Positions 16,770 to 61,919 of a DNA stretch of 64,000 nt are shown here, in pieces. The translations under genes were made by a program, and so were the position numbers. This DNA is from Oryzias latipes (Eukaryota; Chordata; Actinopteri; Beloniformes; Adrianichthyidae): assembly GCF_002234675.1 (NCBI RefSeq), contig NC_019870.2:1041985-1105984 (forward strand), in the 5' to 3' direction. A model generated the notes under the pieces. That model was given only the letters and a program-made list of their open reading frames with translations. It made no database searches and was not told the origin of the DNA. Within the stretch, counting starts at the first letter, position 1; each line of letters begins with the position of its first letter.

Positions 16770-19012
16770 GATTATATAACATCAATTATTACGTCCTCCA
16801 AATCCTCAACGTGTCTGTTAGACCCAATTCCCACTAGACTTTTTAAAGAAACTTTTCCCCTAATTAATGATCCCATATTAACAATGATAAATGCCTCTCT
16901 GGAAACGGGTTACGTGCCACAGTCTTTTAAATATGCAGTTGTTAAACCTCTTCTGAAAAAGCCCAGTTTGGATCCTAGCATCTTGGCCAACTATAGACCG
17001 ATATCAAACCTGCCCTTTATTTCTAAAATCCTAGAAAGAGTTGTAGTTAAGCAGCTTTACTGCCACCTACAGGACAACAGCCACTTTGAAGACTTTCAGT
17101 CGGGGTTTAGACCTCACCACAGTACGGAAACTGCACTAGTTAGAGTCTCTAATGACTTGTTATTGGCCTCAGAAAAGGGACTACTTTCTATTCTGGTCCT
17201 GTTGGACCTCAGTGCAGCCTTTGACACTATCGACCACGGTAATTTACTCCATAGATTAGAGCAGGACATAGGGATCAGAGGATCTGCTCTCCAGTGGTTT
17301 AAATCCTATCTGTCTGATAGGTATCAGTTCGTTAATGTAAATGGCCATTCCTCTCAGTGCACTCGAGTCAACTATGGAGTCCCACAGGGCTCAGTCTTGG
17401 GACCGATCCTGTTTACGCTTTATATGCTACCCCTAGGAAACATAATCAGGAAACACAGCATTAATTTTCATTGTTATGCCGACGATACGCAGTTGTATTT
17501 ATCCATGAAGCCTGACCAGAATGACCAGATAGAGAAACTGAACGCCTGCATCAGTGACATCAAGACCTGGATGACAATTAATTACCTCCTCTTGAACCCA
17601 GAAAAAACTGAGGTCATTATACTAGGTCCTAAAAACCTCAGAGATACTCTGTCTGCTCAGATAGTCTCCCTGGATGGTATAAGTATAGCCCCCAATTCCA
17701 CAGTTAGAAACCTTGGGGTTTTACTTGACCAGGATTTATCATTTAAGGCTCACATATCTCAGGCATGTAGAACTGCCTTTTTTCACCTGTGGAATATTGC
17801 TAAGATCAGAAATATACTTTCTAAGAGTGATGCTGAAAAACTCATCCATGCATTTGTTACGTCGAGGCTGGATTACTGTAACTCCTTGTTAGCAGCGTGT
17901 CCTAAGAGTTCCTTAAGAAGTCTCCAGCTTGTTCAGAACGCAGCTGCTAGATTGTTAGCTGGAACCAGCAGAAGAGATCACATCACTCCTGTGTTGGTTT
18001 CACTTCACTGGATCCCAGTTGATTCTAGAATCAAGTTCAAGATCCTCCTGTTAACCTATAAGGCCTTACATGGAATGGCCCCGTCCTATATTAAGGACCT
18101 CATAGTCCCTTACCAACCAATCAGAACACTTCGCTCGCAAAATGCAGGACTGCTTGTGGTTCCTAGAATTAGTAAAAGTACGGTTGGAGGTAGAGCGTTT
18201 AGCCACCAAGCCCCTGTCTTATGGAATAAACTCCCAGCTCATGTAAGAGAGGCCGACTCAGTTTCTACATTCAAAGCTAGACTGAAAACATTCCTCTTTG
18301 GACAGGCTTATTGTCAGACTAGCTGCTAGAAGTTGAAGCTGGGGTAACTATGGTGCACTGGGGTTCTGTCCTCTTTCCTTTTTTACTTCTACCCTTCCTC
18401 TCCTCTATTCTTGATCATAATTTATCATTTAGTTCTCCATGCCTCTGTTTGGTGCAGTGATTCATGTATTGTCCCTCTTTTCCTCTCCCCTCCTGGGGAG
18501 TGGGAGTGCTTCCAGACTCCAGTTGGCTCATCCGTGCTCCAGTTCCTGACCGTTTACCTCGCCTTTGCTCCTGCTCCTACACCTGGCTGTGGTTCCTGTC
18601 TCCGGCTCGACTCGCGCCTTTGACTGTCCCCCCAACCACGGCTGGATGAAGCTCGTCTGCTGGACTTTTATATATGTAGTTGTAGATTTAGATAAGTTAA
18701 TTCTTCTCTAAGATTTCTGGTAAATCGCCTGTCCGTCCTGGGGGAGGATCCCTCCTTCATGTGGGCACCCCTGAGGTTTCTTCGTTTTTTCCGGAATCCG
18801 GTTTTTTTGGGAATTTTTCCTTACCGCGAAGGGGGGTCTAAGGGCAGGGATGCCAGTATAGCTTAGTCAGTTTGTTAGTTCATTTTAGTATTTTTCTATT
18901 GAACTCTTTGTATTCGTGATCCTTTTGATTTCTTGTTTTACTTCGAAGCCCATCGAGACGACTGTTGTTGTGATTTTGGGCTATACAAATAAAATTGAAT
19001 TGAATTGAATTA
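16770..19012 (+). mobile_element. L2/Maui-type LINE, 5'-truncated, with 3' tail repeats
   Basis: The body begins inside the second open reading frame; an in-frame stop at 16767-16769 marks the end of homology. It continues through the reverse transcriptase frame and about 680 bases of 3' UTR. It ends in tandem ATTGA(ATTG) units after GGCTATACAAATAAAATTG, the characteristic short-repeat tail of fish L2 elements that primes their insertion without a poly-A tail. A 60-bp copy of the same tail occurs at 50163 on the minus strand. Confidence 0.88.
16884..18329 (+). CDS. L2-type LINE reverse transcriptase (partial ORF2)
   Basis: Non-LTR reverse transcriptase lacking the amino-terminal endonuclease because the element is 5'-truncated. 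From the first methionine 481 residues are open, and the same frame is open back to 16770. Visible blocks: [11 protein letters not shown] and [17 protein letters not shown] (fingers), [12 protein letters not shown] (motif A with the first catalytic Asp), [10 protein letters not shown] (motif B), CYADDTQLY (catalytic YADD, motif C), the thumb, and an [12 protein letters not shown] region near the C-terminus. There are no frameshifts or stops in this stretch, which suggests recent insertion or relaxed ageing. It cannot mobilise by itself without the missing part. Confidence 0.9.
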
Positions 19013-29176: not shown

Positions 29177-32100
29177 AAAACTCTGCGTCCCATCCAGACC
29201 CGTCGTCCGGAGGGGGCTCATCCGTGTCTTCTGTAAAACTGTCAAAGTCGCTGTGGACCAGCGGACCATCCGCCTGTAGAACAGACAGCAGAGGTTAAAG
29301 TCCCCAACAGACGGCCCTGAACCAGCAACTCCCCAGAAGACACCCACCGGGGGGGCGAATGGTGGTCTGATGCTCCCCTGCTGCAGGCCGTCCCAGTCAA
29401 AGCCGTCAAACCACCTGATGAGGAAACACACGTTTCCATGACAACCGCCTTGTCAGCATCAGTAAAGCAGTGACTGACGTCTTTGCCGGCTCACTTGTGT
29501 TTCTGGACGTCCCTCAACCCGTTCTTCTGGTTCCCCAAGCGTTCTGACGGACGGTCCCTGAAAAAGAAAAGGGAGTCAGTCGACGCAGAGGTCCATCCCA
29601 CAGAACCAGAGCTGCTCACAGAACCGGAGCTGCTCACAGAACCAGAGCTGCTCACAGAACTGGAGCTTCTTACAGAACTGGTACCGCTCACAGAACCTGC
29701 AGAGTCCTTTGATGAGGTTGGCTGCACTCTTGGTGATCTTCCTGGGAAACTGGATCATGTCGATGCCTCTCAGGATGATGTTGTAGATGTCCAGCGGATC
29801 AGAAGCTAAAAACGGAGGACTGCAGAGACCAGACAGCTTTAGCAGACAGGTTCTCAAACTGACAGACTTTCTGCTTTCTGATTGGCTCTTTATCAGCTAC
29901 CTTTACCTGTACAGTGGTTCTCTCAGCCTGAGGATGAATTTAGAGGAATAACTTGTTTTACAAACATAAACAAACATCTGAAATGTTCATAATTAGAGAA
30001 ACGACAGATTGAGGTAAATGTCTAAAGTGGTGGTGGATCTTTTCATGCAGACATTTGAACAAGGTTTCAGTTATTTTTAAGCAGAAGTTTGGTTTAGATC
30101 AGGGGTCGGGAACCTTTTTGGCCGAGAGAGCCATAAACGCCACATATTTTTAAATGTAATTTCCAAAGAGCCATACAATAATGTTGTGTCTCTTTCCCAC
30201 ACTGAGGCACGGAGACTTAACCTCTTTTAAGGTTCTCTATTCTGGTTACTGCAGACTGCAACGAACACCATACAATTAATTCAGCAACTCCTGAATCTCT
30301 CCTGCTGAAACGAGAGCGCTTCTACCAACTTCATATTCACCTGCTCCCGCTGCAGTCCTCCCATTACCCTTATTCGGCCCATGGCTGAACCCCATTGGCC
30401 CAAATTACCTAACAACAGGCTGAGCGACAGAACTGAGGGCCAATCAGCTCTCTGCTTGATGCGTTTAATGAACTCCAGAACTTTTAAAGCGGCCCAACAG
30501 CCAAGTTAAACTCAGTCCGCGACAATATGTTTAAAACTAAATATACAAGTGAATGTGTGCATTTGATGTAATTTCAACATTTTTAAAGTACAATAAGTCT
30601 GTGGATTCTTTTTAATAACATCGTTATGCTGTTGCTGATAAATGATGAGTATTTCTCGTGGTAGTTTTTTTTTTTTTTTTTTTTTTTTTTTATCTTGTCC
30701 TGTCCAACAGCTGGGCAGACAGATGAGAGCTGAGGGCCTCTTGTCCATCCATCCATCCATCCATCTTCCTCCGCTTATCCGGGACCGGGTCGCGGGGGCA
30801 GCAGACTGAGCAGAGATGCCCAGACTTCCCTCACCCCAGCCACTTCCTCCAGCTCCTCTGGGGGGACCCCGAGACGTTCCCAGGCCAGCCGAGAGACGTA
30901 GTCTCTCCAGCGTGTCCTGGGTCTTCCCCGGGGCCTCCGCCCAGTGGGACATGCCCGGAACACCTCTCCAGGGAGGCGTCCAGGGGGCATCCGGACTAGA
31001 TGCCCGAGCCACCTCAACTGGCTCCTTTCGATGTGGAGGAGAAGCGGTTCTACTCCGAGCTCTCCGCGGGTGACCTAGCTTCTCACCACATCTCTAAGGG
31101 AGCGCCCAGCCACCCTGCGGAGGAAGCTCATGTCAGCCGCTTGTATTCGGAACCTTGTTCTTTCGGTCATGACCCATAGCTCATGACCATAGGTGAGTAC
31201 TGGAACGTAGATCGACCGGTAAATTGAGAGCTTTGCTTTTCGGCTCAGCTCTCTCTTCACCACGACGGACCGATAGAGCGACCGCATAACTACGGACGCT
31301 GCTCCGATCCGCCTGTCAATCTCACGCTCCGATCTTCCCTCACTCGTGAACAAGACCCCAAGGTATTTAAACTCCTCCACCTGGGGCAGGGACACTCCAC
31401 CGACCGAGAGATGGCAAACTACCTTTCTCCGGTCAGGGCCTCTTGTGTTGGACATATTTTACTTTAACAAGAGGGGTTATTCATCTTCAGACAAACCAAA
31501 GGTATGTCTGAATAAACCCCTTTTGTAATTGAGGCCAAACTTTATTAATTTCAATCATGTCTGAAAATCTTTGGTGTTGGACCGGACGGAAAAGGAAAGG
31601 GGGGAAGAAGAGAGAGGGACGTTAGAGAGAGGGGGGGTAGGGGGTGATAATAGGAGGGGAAGGGGGATAATACCATGAAGCAGCATAAAGCAACAAGTTT
31701 ACTGGTTGTTAATCATTATGGTAAGGTTCAAATGCAGAAAGAAAAAAAAAGAAAAAAGGGGCGGAGCCTGTCCACACACACACTCAAATGTTATAAACAC
31801 ACCTGCTAGCTGCAAAAATGTCCACCTGTCGACATGTACACAAAACAGATAGTGTTCACACACGCATACTTATGCCTTAAAACCAAAAAGTGTGAAATAT
31901 TTCAGTCATTCAGTCATGCAAACTGTTAGTGCAAAGGTGAGCTAACACCTGTGCTCAGGTGAGTGTTTATGTTCTTCTAAAATGGATGGTGGAACGTGAA
32001 AAGAAGGAGGGAGAGTGCCCAGCCATCCCCACCCCAAGACCCCCACCGCAGCAGCAGCGGCAGCCGGAATCCCCCCAACGCCACACGGGAACCGGCAGGG

Positions 32101-35100
32101 AACAACCGCCGCCCGGGCGACTAAGCCCGCCACCCAGGCCAGGGCCAGCAGGGCCGCCGCAAGGCCCCCAGAGCCAGAGGCCAGGGACGCACGGAGGGAA
32201 AGAGAGCGCCGCCCCAGCCCAACCAGGAGAGCAGCCCCCCCGCCGCGCCGGGAGAACCCAACGCAGGGCCCCACCGGAGAAGGACGCCCACAGCCCCAAA
32301 CGAGCACCCCACCACCACCCAAGAGTTCCGGGCATCCCCCCGCCCCAACCCCAGGTACGAGCCAGGACCCCCCAAGGGAGACCCGCTCCGCACTCCAGGC
32401 AGCCACCCGCCCGGCCCACGGTTGGTCCAGGGAGGAGCGAGGCAGGGGCCCGCCGCCCCCGCCCAGGAGGGGGGAACCCCGGGGAAAAAAAAGAGGGCCC
32501 ACAAGGGGTGTTGTAAATATGACCCGACCAGGCTCGGCCACAGTTGGAAATTTGGCGGGGCCCAGCACTCAGGAGCAAGGACCAGAACCCACCCCCCAGG
32601 GACCAGACACCCCTGGCTCAGATGTAATGTGAACCCCCCCACCGCGCGGAGAGAGCACCGCCGGGCCCAGGAAGCCGGCACCCCGGGGACACGGCCGCCG
32701 CTGCAAAGGGGCCCGTACCCCCCACCAGGGAAGAGGCAGGGGACAGACGGACCCAGGTCCCACCTTCCTTGCAAAATGTGTGTGCGTGTATGTGTGTTTG
32801 AAAGGGTGTGTGTGTGCATGTGTGTGTGTTTATGTTGGGATGTATATATTGAGGGGGGAGGGGTGTGTGTACTAAGGGGGGTGCAGTTAAAATTGGCGAG
32901 TAGGGCACTAAGGGGACATCTCCTGATTACTCACAGTGACGTCCCCTCACCCTCCCCACCAAGGGGCCCTAAATAAAAAAGGTGAACCCCTTAGTGTTTG
33001 GATGACATGAGCGCCACGCATCGCAGAGACCCAGATCATTCATGTACTGCTTTAGAATACTTGCAGACTGCCATGTACGCTGGTTTGCTGCTGTGCTGAG
33101 TCTGTCAAGTTCAGGGTCCAAAACAAGGTTGACGTCTCCTCCTATAATGATTGTGGAGTCAGAGTGAACTGAGAGTGAGGTGAAGAATCTGTGAAAGAAG
33201 GAAGAGTCGTCAACATTAGGACCATAGATGCTGGCTATGCAAAAGTCCTTGTTCTGAATGGATATATTAATGATTACAAATCTGCCTTCTGGGTCAGTAA
33301 CTGTATCCTTATGAGTAAATGTAACATTTTTATTAATCAAAACTGCAACCCCTCTTTGTTTGGAGTTGAAACTGGCAGAATACATAGCTGGATACTGGGA
33401 ACAGCACAGGAGATGACCAGCTGATAATGATAAATGGGTCTCCTGCAGCAGAGCTATATCTGCTTTAAGATCATTCAGGTGATTTAACACTTTCAATCTC
33501 TTTGGCCCAGAACCAAGTCCACGCACATTCCAGCTAACGATGTTAAGACTGTTCATAGCTGTTCTAACTGGGAGAGTGCAAGGCTAAATAGTGCGTGTGC
33601 CCGTCCGTGTGCGCGTGCCCGCTGTGCGTTCCTGCTACACTGAAGCTCTGTGCGTTGTGGGTGAACGTGTCTTAGCTGTCAGCTGCATGTTGCGTGCGTC
33701 CTGTGTGAGCCTAAGTGAGGTTTTTGCAGTTTATCAACGTGTGTGTGCGGGATCGCGTGTGCATGCTCTTATGCGCGCTAGTATGCGCGCGCGCCCGTTC
33801 CGTGCATAAATAAATACTCACCGTGGTTGCGTTGACTTTACCTGATTCACATATGAGAACATGGGAAGGGGGGGGGACAAGAGAAAAGAGAGAGGGAAAG
33901 AGAAAGAACAAAAAACAAAAACAACGAAACAACAACAGAAACATGAATGTGAGAGAAAGAAAAAACACTTTTCCTGAGAGGTGTTGATGATCCGATTATT
34001 TCCTATTCAATTAAATAAGTTTGCTGGTTTCTTCTGGGCGGCGCAGATGTCAGTGCGCCTCTGAAAGCCTTCAGCACAGCCAGGGTGTTACCTCTGGGTC
34101 CCGGAACAGCTTGCCATTCACAAAAAGTTTATCAACAGCAACCACCGCACGAGCTCCAGCAGACAGGTGCTTCCTCCTCAGCGGGAAGAGGATTTTCCGC
34201 CGGCGGAGGATCTCGCCTGGAAACTGATCATTCACGCTATAATGTGTGTCTTTCAGCTCTCGCCCTCTGCTTTTTACCTGCTCCTTTTGTTTATAATGTT
34301 CAAATTTAGCAACAATAGGACGGGGACGCTGATTGTCCGGCCTCTTTCCTCCGAGCCGGTGAACCCTGTGGAAGGAGATCTTCTGGACTTCTTCCTTGGG
34401 GAGTTTCAGGTGGACCTCTATAAAGGACTTAACAATGTTCTCCGGGACTTCTCCTGCCTCTTCTGGAATCCCTGCGAACACTAGATTGTCCCTCATGCTC
34501 CTCGCCTGAAGATCCAGGAGGGTTTCTTTGATGGATCGGTTTTCCTCAGAAAGACGGGCGGTGTCGTGGCCCAAGATCTTCACGGTCTCTCTGAGGGCCT
34601 GGTTCTCCGCTGCGAGCTCCTGCACCTGCTGTTGGCTGAACTCCAGAGACTCTCGCAGACCTTGGAATTCCTTATGGAGGATCTCCAGCAGATTTAAACG
34701 GCAATCAAGGCTGGAGAGCCTTTTATCAATTGAATCCAGGATATCACTCATGTTGCTGCCTGGGGAGGAGGCAGCCCCCGGGGAGTCTTCGGGACGGTTG
34801 CGTTTGGTGGACGGAGTGGCGGTGTTGGATTTCTTCATGAGGCAGGTATTGAAACACTCGTCGATGTAATTCTCCAGATCCTCCAGGTCCTCCAGGTCAT
34901 CCAGGCTGGCAAATGCTTGACAAACTTTTTCAGATTTTTATTTTTTAAACTTTCTGGATTATTTAAATATGGCGGTGTAATTAAATAAATCAAAAATGTT
35001 TGTTCACAACTTACGCGCCGCCAAGTAAACTCACCACACTCCTCTCGTCGGCTTTCGCGATACTACAGCATCACGTAATCTCTACCTCACCTCTCGTGGT

Positions 35101-38100
35101 AGTTTTGCTGATGGTCTAGTCTGGTTGATACGTGGTGAGTTTCTGCTTCATGCAGGCGTTGAGACTTTAAACGTGATTTTAGGTTAGTATCAATGTTCTG
35201 TAGATGTGAGACAGATTGATCACATGCAGACGGGGAGCCAAACACACACTCACACGCCGCAGTGAGTGACGGGCAGCGGATTTTACGTTTTTACAATACC
35301 TGCGCGATTCACCTGCTGCCGCCCCCCCCCCCGCTTTCTTCCTCACACATCCCGTCCCCGCATCTGCGCGCTCTTTCTCAGAGACGGGAGCGCGTAGTTT
35401 TAGGCACGGCAATTCACAGGTTTCCAGGTGGTACAAACTCTGTGAAATAATAGATAATTGTAAAGTGATAATGCTGGCGCAGATTTTGTTCTCCAAGCAC
35501 GGCTACTACTGTGCGCCTCTGGCATCGCATCGCGCCCGAGAAGGACTGGTCTAATGAAAAAAAAAATTATAATCAAAGATTTGTCTGCGAGCCACATGTG
35601 ACCATCAAAAGAGCCATAGATGGCTCGCGAGCCATAGGTTCCCGACCCCTGGTTTAGATGGAGACGTGTGGTTCCAGGTGGAAACAGAAGATCTACGGTT
35701 GGCCTCTAGAGGCGCTGTTGCGTCTCAACAGTCGTACCTGCCACAGAGCAGCTCAAACAGCAGGACCCCCAGCGCCCAGCAGTCCACCGAGCCGTCATGG
35801 CCTTTGTTCAGGAGGATCTCGGGGGCGACATACTCAGGCGTCCCGCAGAACGTCCACGTCTTCTTTCCCACACCGACATACTTGGCGAAGCCAAAGTCCA
35901 CCTGCCAGCAGGGGAAACGTCAGACGGTTCTAGTTTGAGTAATTCTACCAGGCAAACAATTGAAAAAAGCCTAAAAACCAGCTTAGCGTATCCTCTGAGG
36001 TCCAGCAGGATGGTCTCTGGTTTGAGGTTCCTGTAGATGATTCCTTTGTGGTGAAGATAGACCAGAGCTTCAGTGACACAACCGGCATAGAAGCGAGTGG
36101 CGCCGTCATCAAAAGGCCCCCTTTGGACAGGAAGAAAAACCATTTGATTTCAGGTTGGATGCTGAGTGTCGGAGGAGACAAAGATCCAGTGACGCACCTG
36201 TCCTGCAGCAGAGACCACAGGTCGCCCCCCAGGCAGGCCTCCAGCAGCATGTAGAGACGTCTGGAGTCTCTGAACGTCCGATACAACCTGCAGAAAAACA
36301 GTCAAAAGACCTCAATGCTGGCAGCACAGTCTGGACCTGCCGCACATCCCATAATAAAAGCGTATAAAACACATTAGATGAAGGGAGAAGTGCTGAGCTA
36401 AATCCTTGATTTAAAATCAAAATCATGAAAAGATGTGTATAAGGCAATGAATAGAATGATTGAAGGGTGGATTGAGTGTCTTCCTGATTCTAGACGATCT
36501 CCATACACGCCCCCCCAATCCATACATCAAAGCCTCAGCCAACTCTGTGGTGACACCATGCATTCTGTGACCTAAATAGATACAAATCTATATTTTTCTC
36601 AGGACTGGAATCGACCCGACCTGAAAGAAGCGAGCCTGTGATTGGACGTCTCTTTGTTTGCGTCACATGAACACGAAAAGGTAAAGACAGTAGAGACACA
36701 ACAGGAAGAGAAACAGATCAAGTTTGACAGAAACTGATTATTTGATTTCGGATTCCTATTTTATACGTTATTATCGACATAATCCTGTTTGCATCTGTGG
36801 TTTTTAAGCGATGCTGCCGTTTCTCTCAGTACAAGAACAGTTTTTTTGTTTCACATCCTTTACATCCTGAATGATAATAGAGAGTGAACTTTGAGGCCAC
36901 CGAAAGGTCATAATTATTCCCTCTTTTTTGTTTATTAAGACAGTGGTTTTTCATGTTTTTATTCATATACAAATCAAGTTAGGATGAGCAAACATTTGAA
37001 ATGCACACACAAAAAAAACCCAACAAAATAAAAATAGGTCACGACAAGGCAACAATCTAAAATTACAACAGTTTTGATATATTTTGATCAATTACTGCAG
37101 TTTTCTTGTTTTTGTTTGAAATGCGTTTAAAACACTTAAAAGAATCAGAAGATCCTAAACAAAGGGCATGTGTTTTCCATTTATATAAATGAAAAAGGGT
37201 TTGCACAAAAGAAGTTGGATGACATCAGAAACTTCCGGGTTCAGGTTTTCCATAAAGAAGAGAACATCCGGTAAAGAAAAAGAGGGAATATTATAAACTT
37301 TGAGTGACAGCCAATTATGGATGTCAGTGCAGAATATTTTTTATCTGGTTGCAACTATCAAAGAAATGTTCTAAAGGTTCGGTTTCAGATGAACAGAAAA
37401 CACACGGTTCAGATTGAAACTTAAAGCTTTGATGTAAAAATCTCCAACCGGGTAAATTCCTAAGGTTCAGATGAGAGAATACATCACACTTCCTCTTCCG
37501 GGCTGACTTTCAAAATAAGAGACACGCTTTGGTGTAGTTCTGCTCCACCTTCTGTCATTGTAGCAGTTACTAACTGCTATGTCTTGTTTTCTAGCAGATG
37601 CTCTGGTGTTTCTGTCCGTTTTTCTTCTTCAGTTAATTAATTTTTTCCCCTTTTTTCTCTTAACTGACTTCTCAGTCAGAAAGCCCCCCCCCCCCGGGTC
37701 TGGTTCTGGTGTAGGTTTCGTCTCCATCTTCCAATCTAGAAAGTCCTTAGTCGATTCAGATTAAATGATGATGAAACGGTTCAAGATTGTTCCGGACCTG
37801 ACGATGAACGGGTTGTGAGCCTCCATCAGGATGCGCCGTTCGGACCGGACGCGGTTCTGCTGGCCCGTCTGCAGGATCCGGCTTCTCTGCAGCACTTTCA
37901 AGGCGAACGAGCGATTTGGATACTTCTCCAACTGGACCTGCAGACAGAAGCCCTGAAGCTCCACATGGACGCCAACCTCACACAGTCTGACCTGAACGTG
38001 CGCACGCCCCACCAGGTCCACGCGACTGCAGCCCCCCCGTCCCAGAGTGGAGATGATTCGGAAATGACCGAGGGACAAACCGGAGATGAAGTCCGACTCC

Positions 38101-41100
38101 ACCCGCTGTCTGAAAAAACAGAGCAGAGAAGCTGCTGAGAAGAGTGGGAAAATGTTTCCTTTAATCCTCCCTGTGTGGCTGAACGTCTTAATCTGAGACG
38201 ATTTTTTTTTAAAGGAAGGATCTGACAACAAACTCTGGATCCAGCATGTGGAGGTCTGTGAAGGTCAAAGCTTCTCTGACAGAACTGATGTTGGATATAA
38301 AGACTTTCTTCACACAATAAAAGTACAAATGCTGGAGCAGCCGACCTTCAGCTTCTGCAAACAAACAGCTCTTCAGTCAGAAAAGAGAAGCTCCGCCCCC
38401 AGCAGCAGTTACATAGCACTCTGACTGAAGCACCAATCCTTTTGTCACCTGAACTCGACCTCAGCGCCGCCATCGCTCCCGACATCGCCTCCGTCCGGTG
38501 CTCCGTCCGGTCCTCCGTCCGGCCCTCCAACCACCCGCTTGAAAGACCTGAGACACACAGAGCCCTCAGTAGCCCCACCCCACAAAAGAAAAACTAATTT
38601 AAACTGAGCTTGGGGCTGAAGGAAGATCCAGACTCACTCCCTGTCGATGACCAGGCACGTTGCCCCCCCAACAGCCATGACACTGGCGGCGCGCACATCT
38701 TCCCTGCAGGAGAAACAAAGTGTTCAGAAAAGCAATAAAAAGTTATTTAAAAATGTCTACAAAGAAAAACTAGCTCCAATTTTTACATCACTTGAACGTT
38801 GTTACCATGGACCCCCTCCCCTACACATACTGAGAAGTAACCCTGAAAACCTCACGTCGTCATGGTTACAGATGCTGTTTAGCGTCGTCTCTGGAACAAA
38901 AAGGTGTGTAAAGATGAAGAAGACCCAGCCGGACGAGTTGAAGAGTCTCCTCTGAATGGCGGCTATTGTGACCAGCGTTTCCATGGTAACCCGTCAGGGT
39001 TGTTACGGACGATACATGATCACATGAAAGCCCCCTAAACCCCTCCATAAAGCATCCCTGTGAGTGGAGCCCCCCCATGGGGGAGAAGGAGCCTCACGAC
39101 AGCAGAATCTTCTCAGCTGTTGACTTGTGTTGATCTGTGTGTATGTTGTGTGTTTGTAGTTGTGTGTGTGTTCGTGTGTGGTGGTGGTGGGGGGGTCACC
39201 CTTTCAGGGCGTGCTCTCCAAACCAGTCCCCCTCAGAAAGAGTCCACTCCGTCTCCCGCTCGCCGTCTGCTGAGGCCTGCTGGGACGCCTTCACCTGTGG
39301 GGGGGGGCGATGAACCATGAAGCGGGGCGACAGGAAACACGTCACAGGTGTGCAGACTTCCTGCTCTGCAGCAGAAAACAGCGTCATCTCAGACTCCACA
39401 GGCCTCATGTGTGCTGGGTGGGGTGGGGCCCCAGCCTCATCTGGACCGGTTGGGGCTGTTGGTGGCGTTGCAGCAGCGGCTGCTGCAGGTGGAGGAGCGT
39501 GAGCTCCACCTCTCAGGTGAAGTCTGCACAGGAGTTTGGAGTGCAGTGAAAACAGGATTTGATCGTCTGAAGCATTGCCAGAGTCGCCCGTTCCTCTCTT
39601 GCAGCACAGAGATCCTGGTGCTTTTCATTTTAGTCGTTTAAATTTTTGTAATGGCCTTCTCTCTGGTTTACGCAAAAAGTCACGAGTTCTGACGAGGTCC
39701 AGGGGGCGGGAACGCATTACACCCATTTTAAAGTCGCTCCCTGTGTTTCAGGATAGATTTAAGATTCTCTGAACGGTTTAAACGTTTTAACGGTCTTCTT
39801 ATTGATCCGATCTACTTCTAAAGCATGAGACCTCTGAGGTCCTCCGGTGCTGGCACCGAACCGAACCAGACCTTTTCTTTAAGCTGCAGTTCCTCGTTTT
39901 TGTTCCCTCCGTCCCTCTGCAGACCTCGGACTAAAGGTGATGGTCGGATCAATGACCCTCAACACAAACTCTTCCTGCTCACCTGTCCTTCACTGACGAT
40001 GAAGAAGGTGTCCCCGGGTGCCCCCTGACGGATGATGAAGTCTCCGTCACTGTAAACAGTCTGAGAGTGAAAGGCGATGGACAGGTTTGTCAGCTGCCAT
40101 TGCTTCCTGATATGCGTCCAGAGGAGCTCAGCTCACCTCCTCCAGAGCCTCAGCCAGTCTGCAGAGAACGCCGTCGGGCAGCGACTGAAACCAGGGAACC
40201 CTGCAGAGACAGAACACCTGAGCCGTCTCTCTACGGCAGAGCGGGAGGAGCTTCACCGGAGCTGCCGCTACCTGCGCAGGAGGTCCGTGTGCCGGGAGCG
40301 CCTGAGGAGGCCGGCCCTCATCGTAACGGTCTGGAAACCCTGACGGTCCATCGCCCAAAGCCGGACGTTGGTCAGAGCTGAAGACCAACAAGCAGAGGGA
40401 AGGTCAGCGCCGCTGCTGAGACCTGAACCATTTCAGGATCTGCCCCAAAGGTCAGAGGTTAAGGTGATAAATCTGCCCCATCAGGTAAAGGCCAACATCA
40501 TTTTATACGTTTGGATGTTTGTGTTCTGCTGTCCCTCAACCCTCATTCATGTCCTCATGGTTTTGTCCGACAGAAACCCGTTGATCCTTTAATCTGAGGT
40601 TCAGCAGATGAATCATCAGAACAGATGAGTTTCCTTCAAACAAACATCCATGTTTGGAGAAAGCTGCATCTCTGAAATCTCTCTGGTTTCTGTTCTGTCC
40701 GCTTCGCCACAGCGCCGCGCGCCCACATCCATTCAGTGTATTTACAGCCCTCATTGACCCCCCTCCCTCCCACGCAGAATCAGCTGTACTCATCACAGCT
40801 CGCTGGAGGACGAAGCTCAAGCCTCCAGCGTGGAGAGCTTCGTTTTTCAAGGTCGGTTTGGAACTTCCTCAGGCGCCGCGGCGCTCACGAGCACGGCTTT
40901 AATACACAGCCTTCCTGACAAAAACTGCATCCCAACGATGAGAAATGAGCTTTTGTCAAGCAAAAATAAAAAACTAAAGCGTTTCAGTTTAAATGCATCG
41001 TTTTTATGAGGCTCCAAACCACTACAGGTCCACCACTGTGCTTCATAATAGAGCTTGATCATAAGAATCTGGTTTATAGTCCATAACCCAAACAAAAGTG

Positions 41101-44100
41101 CAGAACAGGACCAGAACCTACAAACTCCTCCTCCTGTGACGCCGTGAAAACCTGCACGAACGCCGCTGTTGTCAGGAGGTCGAGTACGGATGTGTGGAGG
41201 TTCTCTGGGGTCATCAAGACCATAAACTCTGTCTGTTCAGCTCTGCAGAACGAACACAGAACCATCATTCCTGCAGAATCATCTGCATTCATTTCCATCT
41301 CGTTAACCACCTTTTCTCTGCAGATGGATTTTTAATGGAGCTTCTGTGATTCTTTTTCAAGTGCTCAGAGAGCTTCCTGTTCCCCTTCAGCCTCTTTAAA
41401 GACAGAACGCTGAAGGTCGGGAAATAAAAGCAGCCGCTGGAGAGCAGAGAGGGTCAGTGGGGGCTGACCGATGCCAGCAAACGATCCAGAGAGTTTTCAG
41501 ACTGGAGAGGCGAAGCTTCTGCAGAGACGAAAACTGGACCAGAAGAGATTTGACCATTGAGCTTCATCTACCTGAGCTCTGTTCCCATAACCATCTCAGT
41601 TTTCTAAGACTGGGTGGTTAGCCCTGTGCCAACCCCCCAACCTGGAGGGCCAGTGGACTGCTCTTATTCTGGCCTCTACCCTGGATCTGTCTGGCATGGG
41701 AGACCCAACCAGGAGCACAAAGCTCCAGCCAGCATAGCTATCCAGGTCATCCAGACACGCAACCCCCCCAACCACAACAGGGTGGCAGTCCATGGGCACC
41801 CATTACAGGTGGTCTCATGGAGACTACGTACGACGAATACTACGTCACAGCCCCCCACCACGGTCGATGACCAGAATTGACCATTTACCGAAAGCTTTGC
41901 TTACCTGTAGCCCCCTCACATCAGGAGGTGGAAGTGAGAAGGACGCTCAGAACAGGAGTAACAAAGCAAGGGTTACATTCATCGGCATGATCCATACTTG
42001 GAAGTCATCACAGTGCAGCACCAAGACCAAACTGAAACTCTACAACAGCTGTGATCGCTCAGTGGGGAACCGTCTACACCTTGGCCTGCAACCGTCAGAA
42101 ATGGATGGAAAGATTTCATTGCTGCCCCAAGCGTCTCAAGACGTAAAAGGGCAGTGAGGAGAAGAAGCTAAGCTCTGAAAAAACGACCCAAAGAAGAAAT
42201 CTTCCTGAGATGCTAAAGAAAACCTGAAAGTTGGGAGAAAGTCAGAGAAAGAAGGTTTTGCTGTGATCTGCTAGATCACAGATCATTAGAACCTCAGCAG
42301 TTCTGCCTCCAGAGTTCAAACACAAGCTGATGTCATTTCCTGTTTCCTTCAAACGCCTCCATCTGCTTCCACCCAGACTCCACCACAGTCGTCTAGAACA
42401 GAAGTTTTTTCAAACTCTGAGTCATGTTTGGATCTGTAGCTTTCTGCTGTAGATCAAAATGACTCAATAACAAGAAAGACCAGGTCAAAGCGAGTTCATT
42501 TTTACTGAATCGGCTGATGGAGAACCAGATTCATCTGAGGAGCCGAACAGAGGAACAGTTGATGAAACTGTCCTCACATCTGCAGGGGTTTGATGGTTTT
42601 ACAGAACAAAGAGACTGCATGTTTTTGGCACCAAAACAGTAAAAATCCCAAATGTTAAATTCTAATCTTTTCATTTGTCCAAATAATTTGGGTGAAATTG
42701 TTCTTTTCCTTTTAGAAACCCGTCGTTCAGACAGAATGAATGGACTGTGAAGGTCCAAACGTGTCTGCTGGTGTGAACATGGACGACGTCTCTGATGTCC
42801 AAAAGCAGAGACGCCTTCAGTGATGTCAGGAGCAGGTGGAGGCGGGACTTTACCTGTGACGGTGGCTGTGCAGGCGCATCGCTGCAGGACAGCCAGCTCT
42901 CCAAACACCTTCCCGCCGCTGATGTTGCTCCGTTTCCTCCCCTGTTTGGTCACTTCCACCCTCCCCTCTGCAGACACGCACCGATTCGTCAGACGGCTGT
43001 CCGCTTCGAGAACCGCCGCACTCAAACGCCAGGAAAAAGAAAAACACCCAATGATGAAATCATGAGACAAAACTATGAAGATTTTACTCTTAAATATCTG
43101 CACCAATAAGAAAACGTCTTATTTTGACAGTTCTACACGTTTCAGCTTTTAACTTGAAATGTGTCTCAAACTAAACCAACAAGAAAATTCTAAACTCTAA
43201 CAAAAATACAGACACTTAAATAATGAAGCTGTGCCATAAATTCATGCCAAATTATTGTTAAGTTAGAGCAAGAAAATGTTACAGAAACTGAAAGTGCTAA
43301 ATGATGTGCAGAATGTAAACGTTATGAGCAGAAACTTTGACCTAAATACTACTAAATGCAGAGAACATCCAGAATGCTGACAAAAGCTAAAGTACATGCT
43401 TTATGATCACATCACAAAAATACGTTTAAATTAAAGACAAATTCATAAAAATCCATTTCTGGAGTCTTTTCAGTTGGTTTTATCTCCATAGCAACTATTT
43501 CATGTTTTCGTCCCCTGGGAGTGACGACCAGCTATGAAAACTTTAGTAGAATGATCAAAAGCAAACATTTGTTGACCACACCCCCACATTCCTAATATGG
43601 TCATATCGTGTGTTATATTGTTTCGTTCAGCTTGAGCCAAAGATTCATGTATTAAATTTTCAGGAGAGGATTGAAAGTGCATGCTGACCCTCCAGAACGT
43701 AGAGCGTTGAACCCACATCCCCCTCCTGGGTCACGCAGCTGCCCTTGTCCAGGCTGGTGGGGTACATGCTGTCCACAATGGAGGCGATCTGCACACGAGG
43801 CCACGAGTGACTGAACGTTTCTGGTGGGAAGCATCCTTCACCAGCACAGACTCGGGTGGGCCGTACCTGCTCCCGCTCTAGATGCTTCATGTAGTCGTTG
43901 TCCAGCAGAGCTTTCTGGATCAGATCTCTGGATCTGCACACACAACAGCAATGACCTTCCAGCTGTCTGTCAAACATGTTTCAGCGGCAGGAACTGTTAC
44001 TCTGGGTGGTTCTGTCCATTATCACATTATGATGCATGTCAGGTCTTTTTTCTGACAGCTAAACCTTCAAAACCTCCACAGCGGGAGTCTGTCTTTCCAC

Positions 44101-47100
44101 TGCTTCTATGCGGTTTTTCTGCCAAAAATGCTTCCAACAAATATCCACCGATATGCAGATGACGCTTTTATATTTACCTCCCAAACCTCACCAAATAACA
44201 CAACATGTCTTCTTATTTTCTATGAATAAAAGATCACTCCAGGAAACAATCACAGGGGATTCTTAACATGCAGCTCTGGTGCAGTTTCATTAGGGAAGAT
44301 CGTCCTCTGGCTTGTTCCTTCACTCGACACGTCATTCATCAGGTCTTCACTCTGAACCAATAGTCACATGGTTATCTCTCTGCACTCCAGACACTTTCTC
44401 CGGCCTTCCTCCACCCAGTTCTCCACCTGGAGTGGCGCTTTGTCGTGGTCTGGGCCTCAACCACCATCAGCGTCTACACTCTGGGGTTTCTTTATCTTTG
44501 GTCTGACTTGAAGTTCATTCATCTTCCAATCTATTTTGTCCCTTTCGGGGTCACGGGGCTGCCGGAGTCCATCCCGGCCACCTGTGGGCGGGGGCAGGTA
44601 GGTACACCCTAGACAAGTTGCCAGTCTGTTACAGGGCCTGACTTGAAGTTGTGTTCTGGAATCTGGACCTGAAATCTCCCTCCTGGCAACGTTTCACATT
44701 CATCCAAGTGGCTTAATCAGTCTGGAGGATACTGTGGGGTTTGTTTTTTAGACAAACGCCCAAAAATGATGGTGAATGCAGAATCAGTGAGAGCGGCCAA
44801 CATCCATCCCAGCACACAAACACCACCCTGTCTGCTTTTTTATGGCAGTTGTTACGGCGATTCTCACTCTTTGCTCTTTCTGTAGCTGGTAATGCTGACG
44901 GCGGCGAGCTGGGCAGAGTCCAGGGGCGGGGCCTCAGCAGAGAAGGCGTGTCTCTTTGTGCGACGAGTCTCTGGAACACACAGCTGTGAGTTCACACACA
45001 CACTCTGACACTGATTGATGAAAGAAAACATGAATATTCATGCAGCTGCTGCTGTGATTGGTCAGTGTACTGATGTGATTTTGTTTGTGGTGCAGACAAA
45101 CAAACAAACAAGAAAAAACATTTTGTGTCTTTTTGGACTCTCTTCTTTATCTATCACTTTGCTTCTGAACGTTTACTGTTCCTTTATTATTGATTTTTCT
45201 TAAATTTGTTTCAAAGGTTTTTGCTCTCTTGATGGTCTTTAACTTTTTCACATTTTTGCCTTTTTTTGGATTTCTTAAGAAGAAAAATGCGAATCAGAAA
45301 CTAAAGTTTCTCCAAGGAAGAAGAATCTTTTATTTTGACACTGTATTTCAAAGTGTTTCAGTGCTTTTATTTTGTACTCTGACTTTATTAAACAAAGAGT
45401 TTTTAAAAAACATTCAAATCGTTCTGTGAATGCTTTCCTTCTTTATGGTAAAAGAGAGAAAAATATAATATGTGGGCTTTAACTTTGAAATAACATTCTT
45501 AAGGATAGATATCTTCCTGAATGCCTGTAAAGGTGGAACGTCTGAGTGTGTGTGTGTGTGTGTGGGGGGGGGGGGTACCAGGACCTCCTAAACCTTTGCA
45601 GTCACCACTGCTCATTACTTATTAATAATTCATAATCAAACTGACAGGTGAGCTTAGACAGAAACCTCATCATGTTTGCAGATGATGCTGTGATCTATTT
45701 GAGAGTAAGGAGCAGGTGGAGGAACATTTAGAAAGCTGGAGAAACACCTGGAAAGGAGAGGAATTAAGGTCAGCTTAAGGTGAGGGGTGAGGTTATGGGG
45801 AGCATGGGTGAAGGAAGCGGAGGAGGCATGTTCAAGCAGGCTGGAACGGACGGAGGAAGGTTTCAGGAGTGATATGTCTACAAAGAGGATGAAGAGAAAG
45901 AGATTTTTCAAATCCAGTTCTCAAATCTAATTTTGTCTTCCTGAATAAAGAACAGAGCTGCTGGACCGTTCCTCTCGTGGTCCTGGAGCTCTTCTGGGGC
46001 CTCATTTATAAAACTTTGCGTAGGATTTGCGTCAGAAATGGCGTACGGATGAAACATAGGACGTGCGTACGCACAGAAATATTCGGAGTTATAAAACCGT
46101 GCGCACGCACATCCTACGCATCTTTCCCTTAATAAATCACAACCGATTCTAAATGCTGCACAGCTTTTGCGGCTACATGACACGCCCATAGTTGCCCATA
46201 AATAGTCCGTGAAACGCCCACAAATTAATATTCATGGCTTGCTAAATCATGGCAAACACAGAGGGGAAATCAAAAAAACGTAACTTCACTCAATGTGAAG
46301 TAGAAGTTATCGTTGGCGAGGTGGAAAAGAGGAGAAAACGTTGTTTGGAGGGCACAGTGTGGGCATTACTAATGCCATAAAGGCACTTGAGTGGCAAACG
46401 GTGGTAGACGCTGTAAATGCTGTAGCCTCACAACCTCGGACCGTGGCCGAAATAAAAAAGAAATGAAAGAAATGATCGGACATCAAAGTCGAGGCAAAAA
46501 AACGTCTAGCGCTGCATCGGCAGAGTGTGTCCGCCACGTGGGGGGAGGGGGGGGGCCGGAGCTGACCCCTCTTGATGAGAAACTGGCCGCTATTATTGGG
46601 GAATCCCTATTAAGTCCCCCTTATCGGCGTCCTCCTCCGCCTCAGTCACCTGACTGAGACGGAGGAGGACGCCGACGCGCCAGGGTCAGGGTGACACAGG
46701 TAAGAGAAATAATTCAAATGAATGCAGTCAAGTCACATGTATGCAGGCTACACAATTACAGATTATTAATATAGAACAATTTTATTTTAGTTGCTGGGTG
46801 TTCCAGCGGGGCCAGTGGTTACGATGCTGCAGCTGAGCAGCCGTCTGGCCCCAGCGTCTCCACGGCACGCGGCTCTCAACCCTCCAGCAGTGGGCGTGTC
46901 CTCACCGATGCAGTCCTTGAAATGCAGAGGGAAGTCAGTAGTTCAATCAGAGAGGTGGTCAAGGAGTTGGGCGAAATCAAGACTGACTGAAATAAACTGC
47001 ACGATGAGGGAATTCTAAAAATAAATAATATTTTCCACACCCCTTTTTCTTTACAAGCGACGCATCACTTCCAAACGCTGGCGCACAGCAGCAGCAAATG

Positions 47101-47699
47101 GCTCAAATGCGTGGGGATGGGGTTCAGGGTCGGGGCCAACACAGCAATCAGCGCCAGGGGGTAGAGGCACGTTTTTAAGCTGTGCCACATTGTGTAGCAC
47201 AGCACATGCCGGCACGATTTGGCACACACTGTCACTTTCACGTGTTTCTTCCATCTGCCGACGGTGTCGCCGTTTCTCATTTCACCCGTTTTTGTGCGTA
47301 CGCCTGGGTCAGAGCTTGCGTGGAGGACCGCACATTTTCCCGTCAAGTTTGCTTTTTATAAATCTCAACTATTGCGTAGAGAGTGGCGTACGCCTTCTTT
47401 TGTGCGTACGCAACCTTTAGAAATGAGGCCCCAGATCTCCAGCTTCTCTAAATCTGCCTCTGTGGCTGCTCAGAGCTGTGACAGGTGAGTGGGATGGTAC
47501 CTGCATCCTGTCCTCCCCGCCGTGCTGTACTGCGGTACCTGTCCAGCTCCACCTGCAGCTGGCGGATCAGGTCGTCCTTGGAGTCCAGCTCCAGCTCCAG
47601 CTCATCGATGAGAGCGTCTCTCTGACGGAGCTCCTCCACCTTCAGCTGCAGAGCCAGCTGGAGGTCCCGCAGGCTCCCGGGGGCCCTGGACACAGCCAT
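29175..47699 (-). CDS. prkg1l: cGMP-dependent protein kinase 1 (beta-type N-terminus) paralogue, predicted pseudokinase
   Basis: Exons in order: 47699-47539, 43933-43867, 43788-43689, 42967-42854, 40377-40272, 40200-40137, 40060-39983, 39294-39200, 38703-38638, 38547-38449, 38109-38013, 37937-37798, 36287-36198, 36120-35979, 35901-35738, 29819-29697, 29557-29495, 29414-29348, 29273-29175. Phases agree throughout: 644 aa against 686 in human PRKG1 beta. Domains: leucine zipper ([25 protein letters not shown]), cyclic-nucleotide pockets A and B, switch, kinase, and AGC tail ([12 protein letters not shown]). Kept: ATP lysine (FALKVL), alpha-C Glu, [17 protein letters not shown]. Changed: catalytic loop YRNLKPET, Gly loop GRGGCS, pocket A Arg to Cys, pocket B Thr to Ala. 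The zipper exon joins in frame directly to pocket A, leaving out the pseudosubstrate linker. The absence of frameshifts argues for a maintained protein. PRKG1 family membership is certain; the 'l' paralogue symbol is inferred. Confidence 0.88.
30745..31434 (-). mobile_element. Rex3-like RTE LINE, 5'-truncated, innermost insertion
   Basis: Flanked by a 12-bp target duplication AGGGCCTCTTGT (30733-30744 and 31435-31446). Its 3' end is a run of ATGG/GGAT units (30745-30764), the typical tandem tail of Rex3/RTE elements. Only the last part of the reverse transcriptase frame is present. Confidence 0.92.
30775..31434 (-). pseudogene. C-terminal part of RTE (Rex3-like) reverse transcriptase
   Basis: The frame carries [59 protein letters not shown] and [21 protein letters not shown], all hallmarks of the Rex3 C-terminus. 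One in-frame TAG (31077-31075) replaces what is usually a Ser codon; otherwise the frame is continuous to the natural stop. 5' truncation removes the catalytic YADD. Confidence 0.88.
31447..32968 (-). repeat. GC-rich L1 3' region with long accidental open frames
   Basis: The stretch 32000-32760 is C-rich on the + strand and poor in stop codons, so all frames look open for 180-230 codons on both strands. Composition is proline/glycine/arginine-biased in every frame and no domain is visible. Position between the broken ORF2 and the poly-A tail, plus (CA)n/(TG)n near 32777-32830, identify it as LINE untranslated sequence. Confidence 0.6.
32969..33556 (-). pseudogene. L1/Tx1-type ORF2, endonuclease domain only
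   Basis: 195 residues of an apurinic/apyrimidinic-type endonuclease: [13 protein letters not shown] at the start, LLQETHLS (catalytic Glu), [27 protein letters not shown] (catalytic Asp and Asn), then NTKGFTFF and a stop. In complete L1 proteins the next residues contain the SRIDY block and the final catalytic His, followed by the reverse transcriptase. Here sequence switches abruptly to the 3' region, a deletion rather than gradual decay. The remaining part has no frameshift. Confidence 0.88.
34071..34838 (-). CDS. L1-type ORF1 protein (nucleic-acid chaperone)
   Basis: 255 residues with intact start and stop. Residues 30-100 form a coiled coil (heptads such as [18 protein letters not shown] and [13 protein letters not shown]) for trimerisation. 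Next comes an RRM-like part ([16 protein letters not shown]) and a C-terminal domain ([26 protein letters not shown]...[14 protein letters not shown]). This is the Transposase_22 arrangement of L1 ORF1, which packages LINE RNA. It is the only complete protein left in this L1 copy. Confidence 0.9.
   Translation of the reverse strand: MKKSNTATPSTKRNRPEDSPGAASSPGSNMSDILDSIDKRLSSLDCRLNLLEILHKEFQGLRESLEFSQQQVQELAAENQALRETVKILGHDTARLSEENRSIKETLLDLQARSMRDNLVFAGIPEEAGEVPENIVKSFIEVHLKLPKEEVQKISFHRVHRLGGKRPDNQRPRPIVAKFEHYKQKEQVKSRGRELKDTHYSVNDQFPGEILRRRKILFPLRRKHLSAGARAVVAVDKLFVNGKLFRDPEVTPWLC
36890..37500 (-). mobile_element. Decayed L1/Tx1 ORF2 C-terminal fragment
   Basis: Reading the minus strand from about 37500 across frames gives a zinc-knuckle-like [18 protein letters not shown] block. 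Further on comes [19 protein letters not shown], resembling the (I/H)HKCK region that closes L1 ORF2 proteins. Multiple stops are present. It lies in the intron between the exons at 37798 and 36287 of the prkg1-like gene. Confidence 0.5.
37938..38012 (-). other. 75-bp intron within the kinase Gly-loop region
   Basis: Splicing CTG/gtgggg to ctgcag/GTC joins RVDLV to [13 protein letters not shown] and restores the family alignment. The intron is a multiple of three and free of stops, so retention would insert 25 residues between kinase strands without breaking the frame. Confidence 0.65.
39625..39785 (+). mobile_element. Decayed L2-type LINE C-terminal fragment
   Basis: The frame reads [34 protein letters not shown] (shown here only to indicate order: [11 protein letters not shown], then [11 protein letters not shown], then QDRFKIL), matching the thumb/C-terminal segment LDYCNSLL...ITPVL.SLHW.P...R..FK of L2-type reverse transcriptases. 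Short fossil in a prkg1-like intron. Confidence 0.6.
41600..42160 (+). mobile_element. Decayed LINE fragment, clade uncertain
   Basis: Near 41960-42080 the frame gives [20 protein letters not shown], then LYNSC, resembling the segment (NIWKS..YS.KTK.KLYNSCVL) that follows the YADD domain of several non-LTR reverse transcriptases. The part before it (41600-41880) also looks repeat-derived but could not be assigned. Several stops. Confidence 0.4.
44070..44205 (+). mobile_element. Decayed LINE reverse transcriptase fragment
   Basis: [15 protein letters not shown] block (from [11 protein letters not shown]-like) is followed after about 20 residues by [10 protein letters not shown] in another frame. 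Same type of fossil as at 1540 and 6140. Confidence 0.5.
44530..44640. repeat. Fish interspersed repeat fragment
   Basis: GGGTCACGGGGCTGCCGGAG, then TACACCCTAGACAAGTTGCC and CAGTCTGTTACAGGGCC, are recognisable from a dispersed repeat common in teleost genomes. I cannot assign its class. A fragment from the other end of what seems to be the same repeat lies at 52585-52712. Confidence 0.5.
45650..45800 (+). mobile_element. RTE-type LINE fragment
   Basis: The frame gives [10 protein letters not shown], then across a small frame change [12 protein letters not shown] and LERRGIKVS-like sequence. This matches the same region of the RTE element at the right end of the window (MMFADDIVICSESREQVEEQ). 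A short fragment, in the large first intron of the prkg1-like gene. Confidence 0.65.
46249..46660 (+). pseudogene. Harbinger Myb/SANT-like DNA-binding protein, broken
   Basis: Starts [30 protein letters not shown] in pieces: [20 protein letters not shown] is the first helix pair of the Myb/SANT-like domain. A frameshift near 46350 is followed by [32 protein letters not shown] and then a stop where Trp is expected. Further on [12 protein letters not shown] resembles the C-terminal part. Two or more lesions make it non-functional. Confidence 0.75.
47051..47300 (-). pseudogene. Harbinger DDE transposase C-terminal remnant
   Basis: The minus strand has [19 protein letters not shown], matching the ACAVLHN(I/V)A motif just downstream of the last catalytic acidic residue in PIF/Harbinger transposases. 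Upstream sequence in another frame fits poorly and the catalytic DDE part is missing. Confidence 0.7.
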
Positions 47700-59785: not shown

Positions 59786-60723
59786 AGCTCCTCTCTGCTC
59801 CTCACTGCTCCTCACTGCTCCTCACTGCTCCTCACTGCTCCTCACAGCTCCTCACTGCTCCTCACTGCTCCTCACTGCTCCTCATTGCTCCTCACTGCTC
59901 CTCATTGCTCCTCACTGCTCCTCACTGCTCCTCACTGCTCCTCACAGCTCCTCACTGCTCCTCACTGCTCCTCACTGCTCCTCTCAGCTCCTCACAGCTC
60001 CTCATTGCTCCTCACTGCTCCTCTCAGCTCCTCACTGCTCCTCTCAGCTCCTCACTGCTCCTCACTGCTCCTCACTGCTCCTCACTGCTCCTCTCAGCTC
60101 CTCACTGCTCCTCTCAGCTCCTCACTGCTCCTCACTGCTCCTCTCAGCTCCTCACAGCTCCTCACTGCTCCTCACTGCTCCTCTCAGCTCCTCACAGCTC
60201 CTCACTGCTCCTCACTGCTCCTCTCAGCTCCTCACTGCTCCTCACTGCTCCTCACTGCTCCTCACTGCTCCTCTCAGCTCCTCACAGCTCCTCACTGCTC
60301 CTCACTGCTCCTCTCAGCTCCTCACTGCTCCTCACTGCTCCTCACTGCTCCTCACTGCTCCTCTCAGCTCCTCACTGCTCCTCACTGCTCCTCACTGCTC
60401 CTCACTGCTCCTCTCAGCTCCTCACAGCTCCTCATTGCTCCTCATAGCTCTTCACTGCTCCTCACTGCTCCTCATAGCTCCTCACTGCTCCTCACTGCTC
60501 CTCTCAGCTCCTCACAGCTCCTCATTGCTCCTCATAGCTCTTCACTGCTCCTCACTGCTCCTCACAGCTCCTCATTGCTCCTCATAGCTCTTCACTGCTC
60601 CTCACTGCTCCTCATAGCTCCTCACTGCTCCTCACAGCTCCTCACTGCTCCTCACTGCTCCTCACAGCTCCTCACTGCTCCTCACTGCTCCTCTCAGCTC
60701 CTCACAGCTCCTCACTGCTCCTC
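59786..60723. repeat. 10-bp minisatellite, about 94 units
   Basis: Near-perfect head-to-tail array of CTGCTCCTCA, phased exactly at 10 bases throughout. Variant units (CAGCTCCTCA, CTGCTCCTCT, TTGCTCCTCA, TAGCTCCTCA) occur in recurrent combinations, pointing to higher-order duplication. Because 10 is not a multiple of 3, all three forward frames are open and encode a 10-residue periodic peptide, which is an artefact rather than a gene. Confidence 0.97.
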
Positions 60724-61606: not shown

Positions 61607-61833
61607 GCGCAGCAGCTGCAGCAGCAGCAGCAGCAGCAGCTGCAGCAGCTACAGCAGCAGCAGCTGCAGCAGCAGCAGCAGCAGCAGCAGCAGCTACAGC
61701 AGCAGCTACAGCAGCAGCAGCAGCAGCAGCAGCTGCAGCTGCAGCTGCAGCAGCAGCAGCAGCAGCTGCAGCAGCTGCAGCAGCAGCAGCTACAGCAGCA
61801 GCTACAGCAGCAGCAGCTGCAGCAGCAGCAGCT

Positions 61834-61865
<32 letters not shown>

Positions 61866-61913
61866 TGCAGCAGCTGCTGCTGCAGCTGCAGCAGCAGCAG
61901 CTGCAGCAGCAGC
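61607..61913. repeat. CAG/CTG trinucleotide array, about 300 bp
   Basis: Mostly CAG with regularly interspersed CTG (giving many CTGCAG sites) and a few CTA units; the longest pure CAG run is about ten units near 61834-61864. The sequence is close to self-complementary and should form hairpins. Open frames on both strands encode runs of Gln, Ala, Ser, Leu or Cys depending on frame. No initiating exon or conserved flank supports a real protein. Confidence 0.95.
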
Positions 61914-61919
61914 ACTGGC

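Follow-up and report, generated by a model that had tools for sequence, protein, structure and literature searches.

A 64,000-nucleotide stretch of the Oryzias latipes genome, hereafter the window, carries a complete PRKG1-beta-type gene that, on balance, appears to encode a full-length PKG1-beta-like pseudokinase that purifying selection has maintained through most of its past. The gene runs from 47699 to 29175 on the minus strand, where spliced alignment and checks by hand define 20 coding exons and 691 codons with no internal stop and no frameshift. Two residues of its catalytic loop and several contacts of its cyclic-nucleotide sites have been replaced, and the leucine zipper at its amino terminus is preserved.

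The exons were placed between 47.7 and 29.2 kb by tblastn with human PRKG1 beta, a query sequence whose displayed parts agree with PDB 7lv3. Micro-exons proposed by the spliced alignment in poorly conserved linkers were rejected, and the neighbouring exons were either joined directly in frame or replaced there by a full exon. In the resulting model, translation begins at an ATG at 47699 in the context GCCATGG and ends at a TAA at 29177-29175, and all 19 introns are GT-AG. The initial annotation had described 19 exons splicing in frame; the in-frame splicing stands, but the coding exons number 20. The predicted protein has the domain order of PKG I beta, consisting of zipper, autoinhibitory region, two cyclic-nucleotide domains, AGC kinase domain and C-tail (Table 1), and its kinase domain is identical to that of human PRKG1 at 178 of 264 positions. 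Pfam matches it with cNMP_binding over two stretches (E 1.9e-35) and with Pkinase over the whole domain (205 bits), while the PKcGMP_CC match to the zipper, at 33.1 bits, falls slightly below the cut-off of 35; against PDB, 3nmd is the sole match to the zipper at E<=0.001 (E 2.7e-20). An alpha-isoform first exon was not convincingly found in the window or in the related contig-9 locus described below, and the best match in the window, at 11083-11193 with E 4e-4, appears fortuitous.

Table 1. Features of the PRKG1-beta-type gene (positions are those of the window; residue equivalences refer to human PKG I beta or to PKA)
Feature	Position	Strand	Remark
Exon 1, leucine zipper	47529..47678	-	relative to human, residue type conserved at 13/14 acidic and 14/14 Leu/Ile positions
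Exon 2, autoinhibitory pseudosubstrate-like segment retained	44868..44970	-	preceded by a phase-1 intron
Exon 5, site A phosphate-binding cassette	42854..42967	-	human beta R192 -> Cys, codon 42872-42870
Exon 9, site B base-binding region	39200..39294	-	Arg297-equivalent -> Trp, 39246-39244
Exon 10, site B phosphate-binding cassette	38638..38703	-	Arg316 kept; Thr317 -> Ala, 38690-38688
Exon 12, glycine-rich loop GRGGCSRV (PKG1: GVGGFGRV)	38013..38109	-	G55-equivalent -> Ser, 38027-38025
Exon 13, ATP lysine (37898-37896) and alpha-C Glu (37841-37839) retained	37798..37937	-	
Exon 15, catalytic loop YRNLKPET	35979..36120	-	weak donor CTG|gttttt
Exon 16, DFG, activation-loop Thr and APE retained	35738..35901	-	
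Exon 17	29697..29819	-	weak donor CAG|gttctg
Exon 20, C-tail then TAA	29175..29273	-	

Intron 3 (43866-43789) is a 78-base phase-0 intron that splits the site A exon; it is absent from the contig-9 gene and from the canonical prkg1 exon and was apparently gained in the window gene. Intron 16 (29820-35737, 5.9 kb) contains LINE-like frames, among them an endonuclease-type frame at 33583-32972 (Pfam Exo_endo_phos) and two further frames recognized by eye that have no Pfam match (34937-34074 and 31458-31078). Elsewhere in the window there are two long reverse-transcriptase frames (Pfam RVT_1; 16770-18326 on the plus strand and 62556-63998 on the minus strand), a 0.9-kb tandem array at 59787-60723 with a unit based on GCTCCTCACT, and a 0.3-kb GCA repeat at 61609-61914. 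FGFR-like exons at about 2.7-7 kb (plus strand) and WDR45 (PROPPIN)-like exons at 51-55 kb (minus strand) were each named by eye with a Pfam match on one frame, and a stanniocalcin-like frame lies at 8954-9313 (minus strand, Pfam).

The catalytic loop reads YRNLKPET; canonical prkg1 in this genome has YRDLKPEN, encoded by TAC AGA GAC CTG AAA CCA GAG AAC. The codon equivalent to PKA Asp166 is AAC (36029-36027, minus strand) in place of GAC, giving Asn, and that equivalent to Asn171 is ACC (36014-36012, minus strand) in place of AAC, giving Thr, so that the initial annotation was right in reading the loss of both residues as two single-base changes. Its further statement that the ATP lysine, DFG, activation-loop and APE motifs persist is likewise borne out, and the alpha-C Glu can be added to them. 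Thus, of the active-site set Lys72/Glu91/Asp166/Asn171/Asp184, Lys72, Glu91 and Asp184 are kept and Asp166 and Asn171 are lost; Gly50, Gly52, Lys168, the activation-loop Thr, the APE Glu, Asp220, Arg280 and the C-tail are also retained, and the remaining changes at such positions, absent from the initial annotation, are Gly55 to Ser and Glu127, which contacts substrate and ribose, to Asp. If a pseudokinase is defined by loss of the VAIK Lys, the HRD Asp or the DFG Asp from a preserved kinase fold, the predicted protein would be one, its HRD Asp being Asn.

Both cyclic-nucleotide sites have lost features of PKG I, a point on which the initial annotation is silent. The base-binding Arg of site B is taken here to be Arg297, and Thr317 is presumed to serve the same site. 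In the window gene the phosphate-binding Arg of site A is Cys, and the cGMP-selective site B fails at Arg297, at Thr317 and at the Tyr351 cap, for which no Tyr exists in the aligned linker; Arg316 is kept. According to PMC9417419, site B is served by a base-binding Arg and Tyr351, and the aortic-disease mutation R177Q, numbered R192Q in beta, replaces the site A Arg and activates the kinase. The window gene thus shares with that mutant the replacement of the same arginine and differs from it in that the mutant is constitutively active, whereas here the replacement is Cys and the catalytic residues are lost as well.

A genome search for PKG loci returned 71 matches, and 65 of 557 candidates were scored. 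The canonical prkg1 lies on contig 15 and is identical to human PRKG1 at 255 of 264 kinase positions and, over the part read, which stops short of site B, at 93 of 95 positions of site A. PRKG2-like genes lie at 32.3 Mb on contig 9 and at 4.14 Mb on contig 15, and contig 24 carries a PKG of greater divergence; counting canonical prkg1, all four loci keep YRDLKPEN. For comparison, the zebrafish genes named in PMC12498267 are prkg1a, prkg1b, prkg1l and prkg2. An animal gene should have no close counterpart in prokaryotes or viruses, and the prokaryote genomes and viral contigs scanned with a 144-amino-acid kinase stretch yielded no relatives.

Of the candidates scored, three genes contain a match to the PKG I beta zipper exon. 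A second PRKG1-beta-type gene, also degenerate, is located on the minus strand of contig 9 at 16.99 Mb (locus L033, 16987000-16995999), and its model of 19 exons has no stop and no frameshift, the last exon being unreliable in that the final ~30 residues align poorly to the PKG tail and no stop follows directly. This gene has kept the HRD Asp and has instead changed Lys72 to Arg, Asn171 to Arg, DFG to GSR and Glu127 to Asn, and its site A and site B arginines have become Phe and Trp, respectively. Both genes have therefore lost Asn171 and the site A Arg, with different replacements in each, and the other lost catalytic residues differ between them.

The window and contig-9 genes may be an old duplicate pair. 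They group at 96/97 in a five-row full-length tree and at 83/84 in a nine-row kinase tree, each of the two genes being a long branch, and in the latter tree the window gene, whose letter make-up was flagged by the tree tool, joins PRKG1 rather than PRKG2 at 90/92, which is under the tool's star level of 95/80. The two genes share 54 residues absent from human PRKG1 (and from canonical fish prkg1 where read), 12 of which are also present in human PRKG2, and in both of them the zipper is followed by an additional phase-1 intron that is absent from canonical fish prkg1. Tblastn of window frames of at least 30 amino acids against 54 kb of contig-9 flank revealed no neighbour in common, the matches at E<=1e-4 being repeat-like in appearance. 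Genome duplication may have paired contigs 9 and 12, but local synteny gave this pairing no support. Passages of PMC2446394 hold no statement on it.

The distribution of differences between the two genes indicates where constraint has acted. They are identical at 41 of 49 zipper positions but at 136 of 264 in the kinase domain, a pronounced contrast (Fisher p = 1.8e-5); the figures for sites A and B are 47/125 and 49/112, and those for the autoinhibitory linker and the tail 13/44 and 12/40. The contig-9 gene shows the same contrast against human (41/49 versus 141/264, p = 6e-5), the window gene a contrast that is not significant (39/49 versus 178/264, p = 0.09), and canonical prkg1 none (48/49 versus 255/264, p = 1.0). 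In each degenerate gene all 14 Leu/Ile positions of the zipper are kept in kind, as are 13 of its 14 acidic ones, and the single acidic loss, E13L, is common to both. PMC10298018 names acidic residues in the PKG I beta zipper as contacts of IRAG1.

Within the kinase domain of the window gene, only 8 of 78 non-catalytic columns that are invariant in six active PKG and PKA rows have changed, as against 73 of 171 variable columns (p = 1.8e-7), and therefore the fold has remained under constraint; with invariance defined from three rows (human PKG1, PKG2 and PKA) the corresponding figures are 21/110 and 64/153. Compared with canonical prkg1, 43 of 264 second positions in the kinase region have changed and 49 of 67 fourfold sites. 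The catalytic invariants have changed more often than the other invariants (4/14 versus 8/78), a difference that is not significant (p = 0.08), and the same holds for the contig-9 gene (6/14 versus 21/78, p = 0.34). Had each of the 271 residue differences from human been a neutral missense change, a calculation that counts differences on the human side too, about 12.5 stops would be expected in the window gene, where none is seen; for the 356 differences of the contig-9 gene the expectation is 16.4, and that gene is open in a model whose last exon is unreliable.

These figures also set the bounds on a rival reading in which the gene was a fast-evolving, working PKG until lately and is now beginning to decay, as its substitutions and weak splice donors would indicate. 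The donors of exon 15, which carries the catalytic loop, and exon 17 score -4.8 and -4.1 on a generic score matrix, below all 18 donors of the contig-9 gene (lowest -2.3) and all eight kinase-exon donors of canonical prkg1 (lowest -0.9), so recent decay is conceivable, and at the 5% level the lack of stops would still allow as much as about 24% of the divergence to be neutral. Synonymous sites, moreover, are saturated in most parts by the NG86 method (in the zipper, dN is 0.111 and dS 1.94 between the window and contig-9 genes), with the consequence that the recent branch yields no measure of selection and a recent relaxation could have gone unseen. Recent inactivation nevertheless seems unlikely given 691 codons without internal stop or frameshift, the preservation of C-tail, activation loop and zipper, and a contig-9 paralogue that is more degenerate and whose model is likewise open. 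The proposal in the initial annotation of a maintained pseudokinase rather than a dying gene thus gains from the open frame, the constrained second positions and a second degenerate gene with a kept zipper, and is qualified by the weak donors.

A different reading is that the protein is a weakly active or nucleotide-regulated kinase, either because Asn in place of the catalytic Asp allows slow transfer or because ATP binding is itself the function. Pseudokinases occur in many kinase families; among those used here for comparison, HER3 and JAK2 keep the loop Asn, PSKH2 has neither a zipper nor cyclic-nucleotide-binding domains, and two rows of a motif table that has no column heads are taken to be PSKH1 and PSKH2. 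PSKH2, a primate HRN pseudokinase, resembles the window protein in the change of HRD to HRN with the ATP-coordinating residues kept (PMC9988210) and in a glycine loop that ends in Ser, GTGSFS beside HRNLKPEN (table in PMC7586955), and differs from it in belonging to the CAMK family and in keeping the loop Asn where the window gene has Thr. Since Ser at the last glycine-loop position appears beside both HRDLKPEN and HRNLKPEN in the table of PMC7586955, the change of Gly55 to Ser need not inactivate by itself. Asn also replaces the catalytic Asp in the pseudokinase domains of HER3 and JAK2 (PMC9988210 and PMC7586955), which belong to tyrosine-kinase families and dimerise by other means. The very low activity of HRN pseudokinases cited in those same papers, that of HER3 and JAK2 being given in PMC9988210, lends some weight to a residual activity of the window protein, as does its retention of Lys72, Glu91, Lys168, DFG and the activation-loop Thr, but the second metal ligand Asn171 is gone, the glycine loop now reads GRGGCS and Glu127 has become Asp, all of which makes this reading quite improbable.

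An error of sequence or assembly at the Asp166 and Asn171 codons is very improbable, as the two substitutions lie 15 bases apart, unusual residues also occur in exons 5, 9, 10, 12 and 14, the frame is open, and the 21-base catalytic-loop word has a single exact match in the 734-Mb, 25-contig assembly. That A-to-I RNA editing restores the catalytic Asp and an active protein is scarcely credible, for although AAC is one A-to-G step from GAC, the edited codon is preceded by G, a 5' neighbour that ADAR disfavours, and editing could neither turn ACC into an Asn codon nor undo the losses in the cyclic-nucleotide sites.

Under the favoured reading of a maintained pseudokinase, the sequence pattern of the two genes fits proteins in which constraint has shifted to the zipper. 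The window protein probably acts as a partner or decoy and not as a kinase, because its frame and zipper are kept and two catalytic residues and several cGMP contacts are lost. Judged from its residues, it would not phosphorylate efficiently and would no longer switch normally on cGMP, although the retained Lys72, Glu91 and DFG may still permit ATP binding. Its zipper would allow homodimers as well as pairing with the contig-9 paralogue or active PKG1-beta, and docking of zipper partners of PKG1-beta such as IRAG may persist, in which case the protein would serve as a decoy or anchor or would dampen cGMP signalling.

A broader and more tentative proposal, to be regarded as possible and not as probable, is that two PKG1-beta-derived proteins gave up catalysis and normal cGMP sensing through largely different substitutions while their zippers stayed near-intact, and so constitute a pseudokinase subfamily, driven by the zipper, that would titrate partners of the IRAG type or poison dimers of active PKG1-beta. 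On this proposal, the site A arginine, whose loss renders human PRKG1 constitutively active, may have been dispensable only once catalysis was lost with it. Among the titles listed by searches of open-licence PMC papers, none concerned a PKG pseudokinase. If the two proteins are expressed, they would form a natural experiment on the role of the PKG1-beta zipper apart from the enzyme, and studies of NO/cGMP signalling in fish should then not treat every prkg1-like gene as a kinase.
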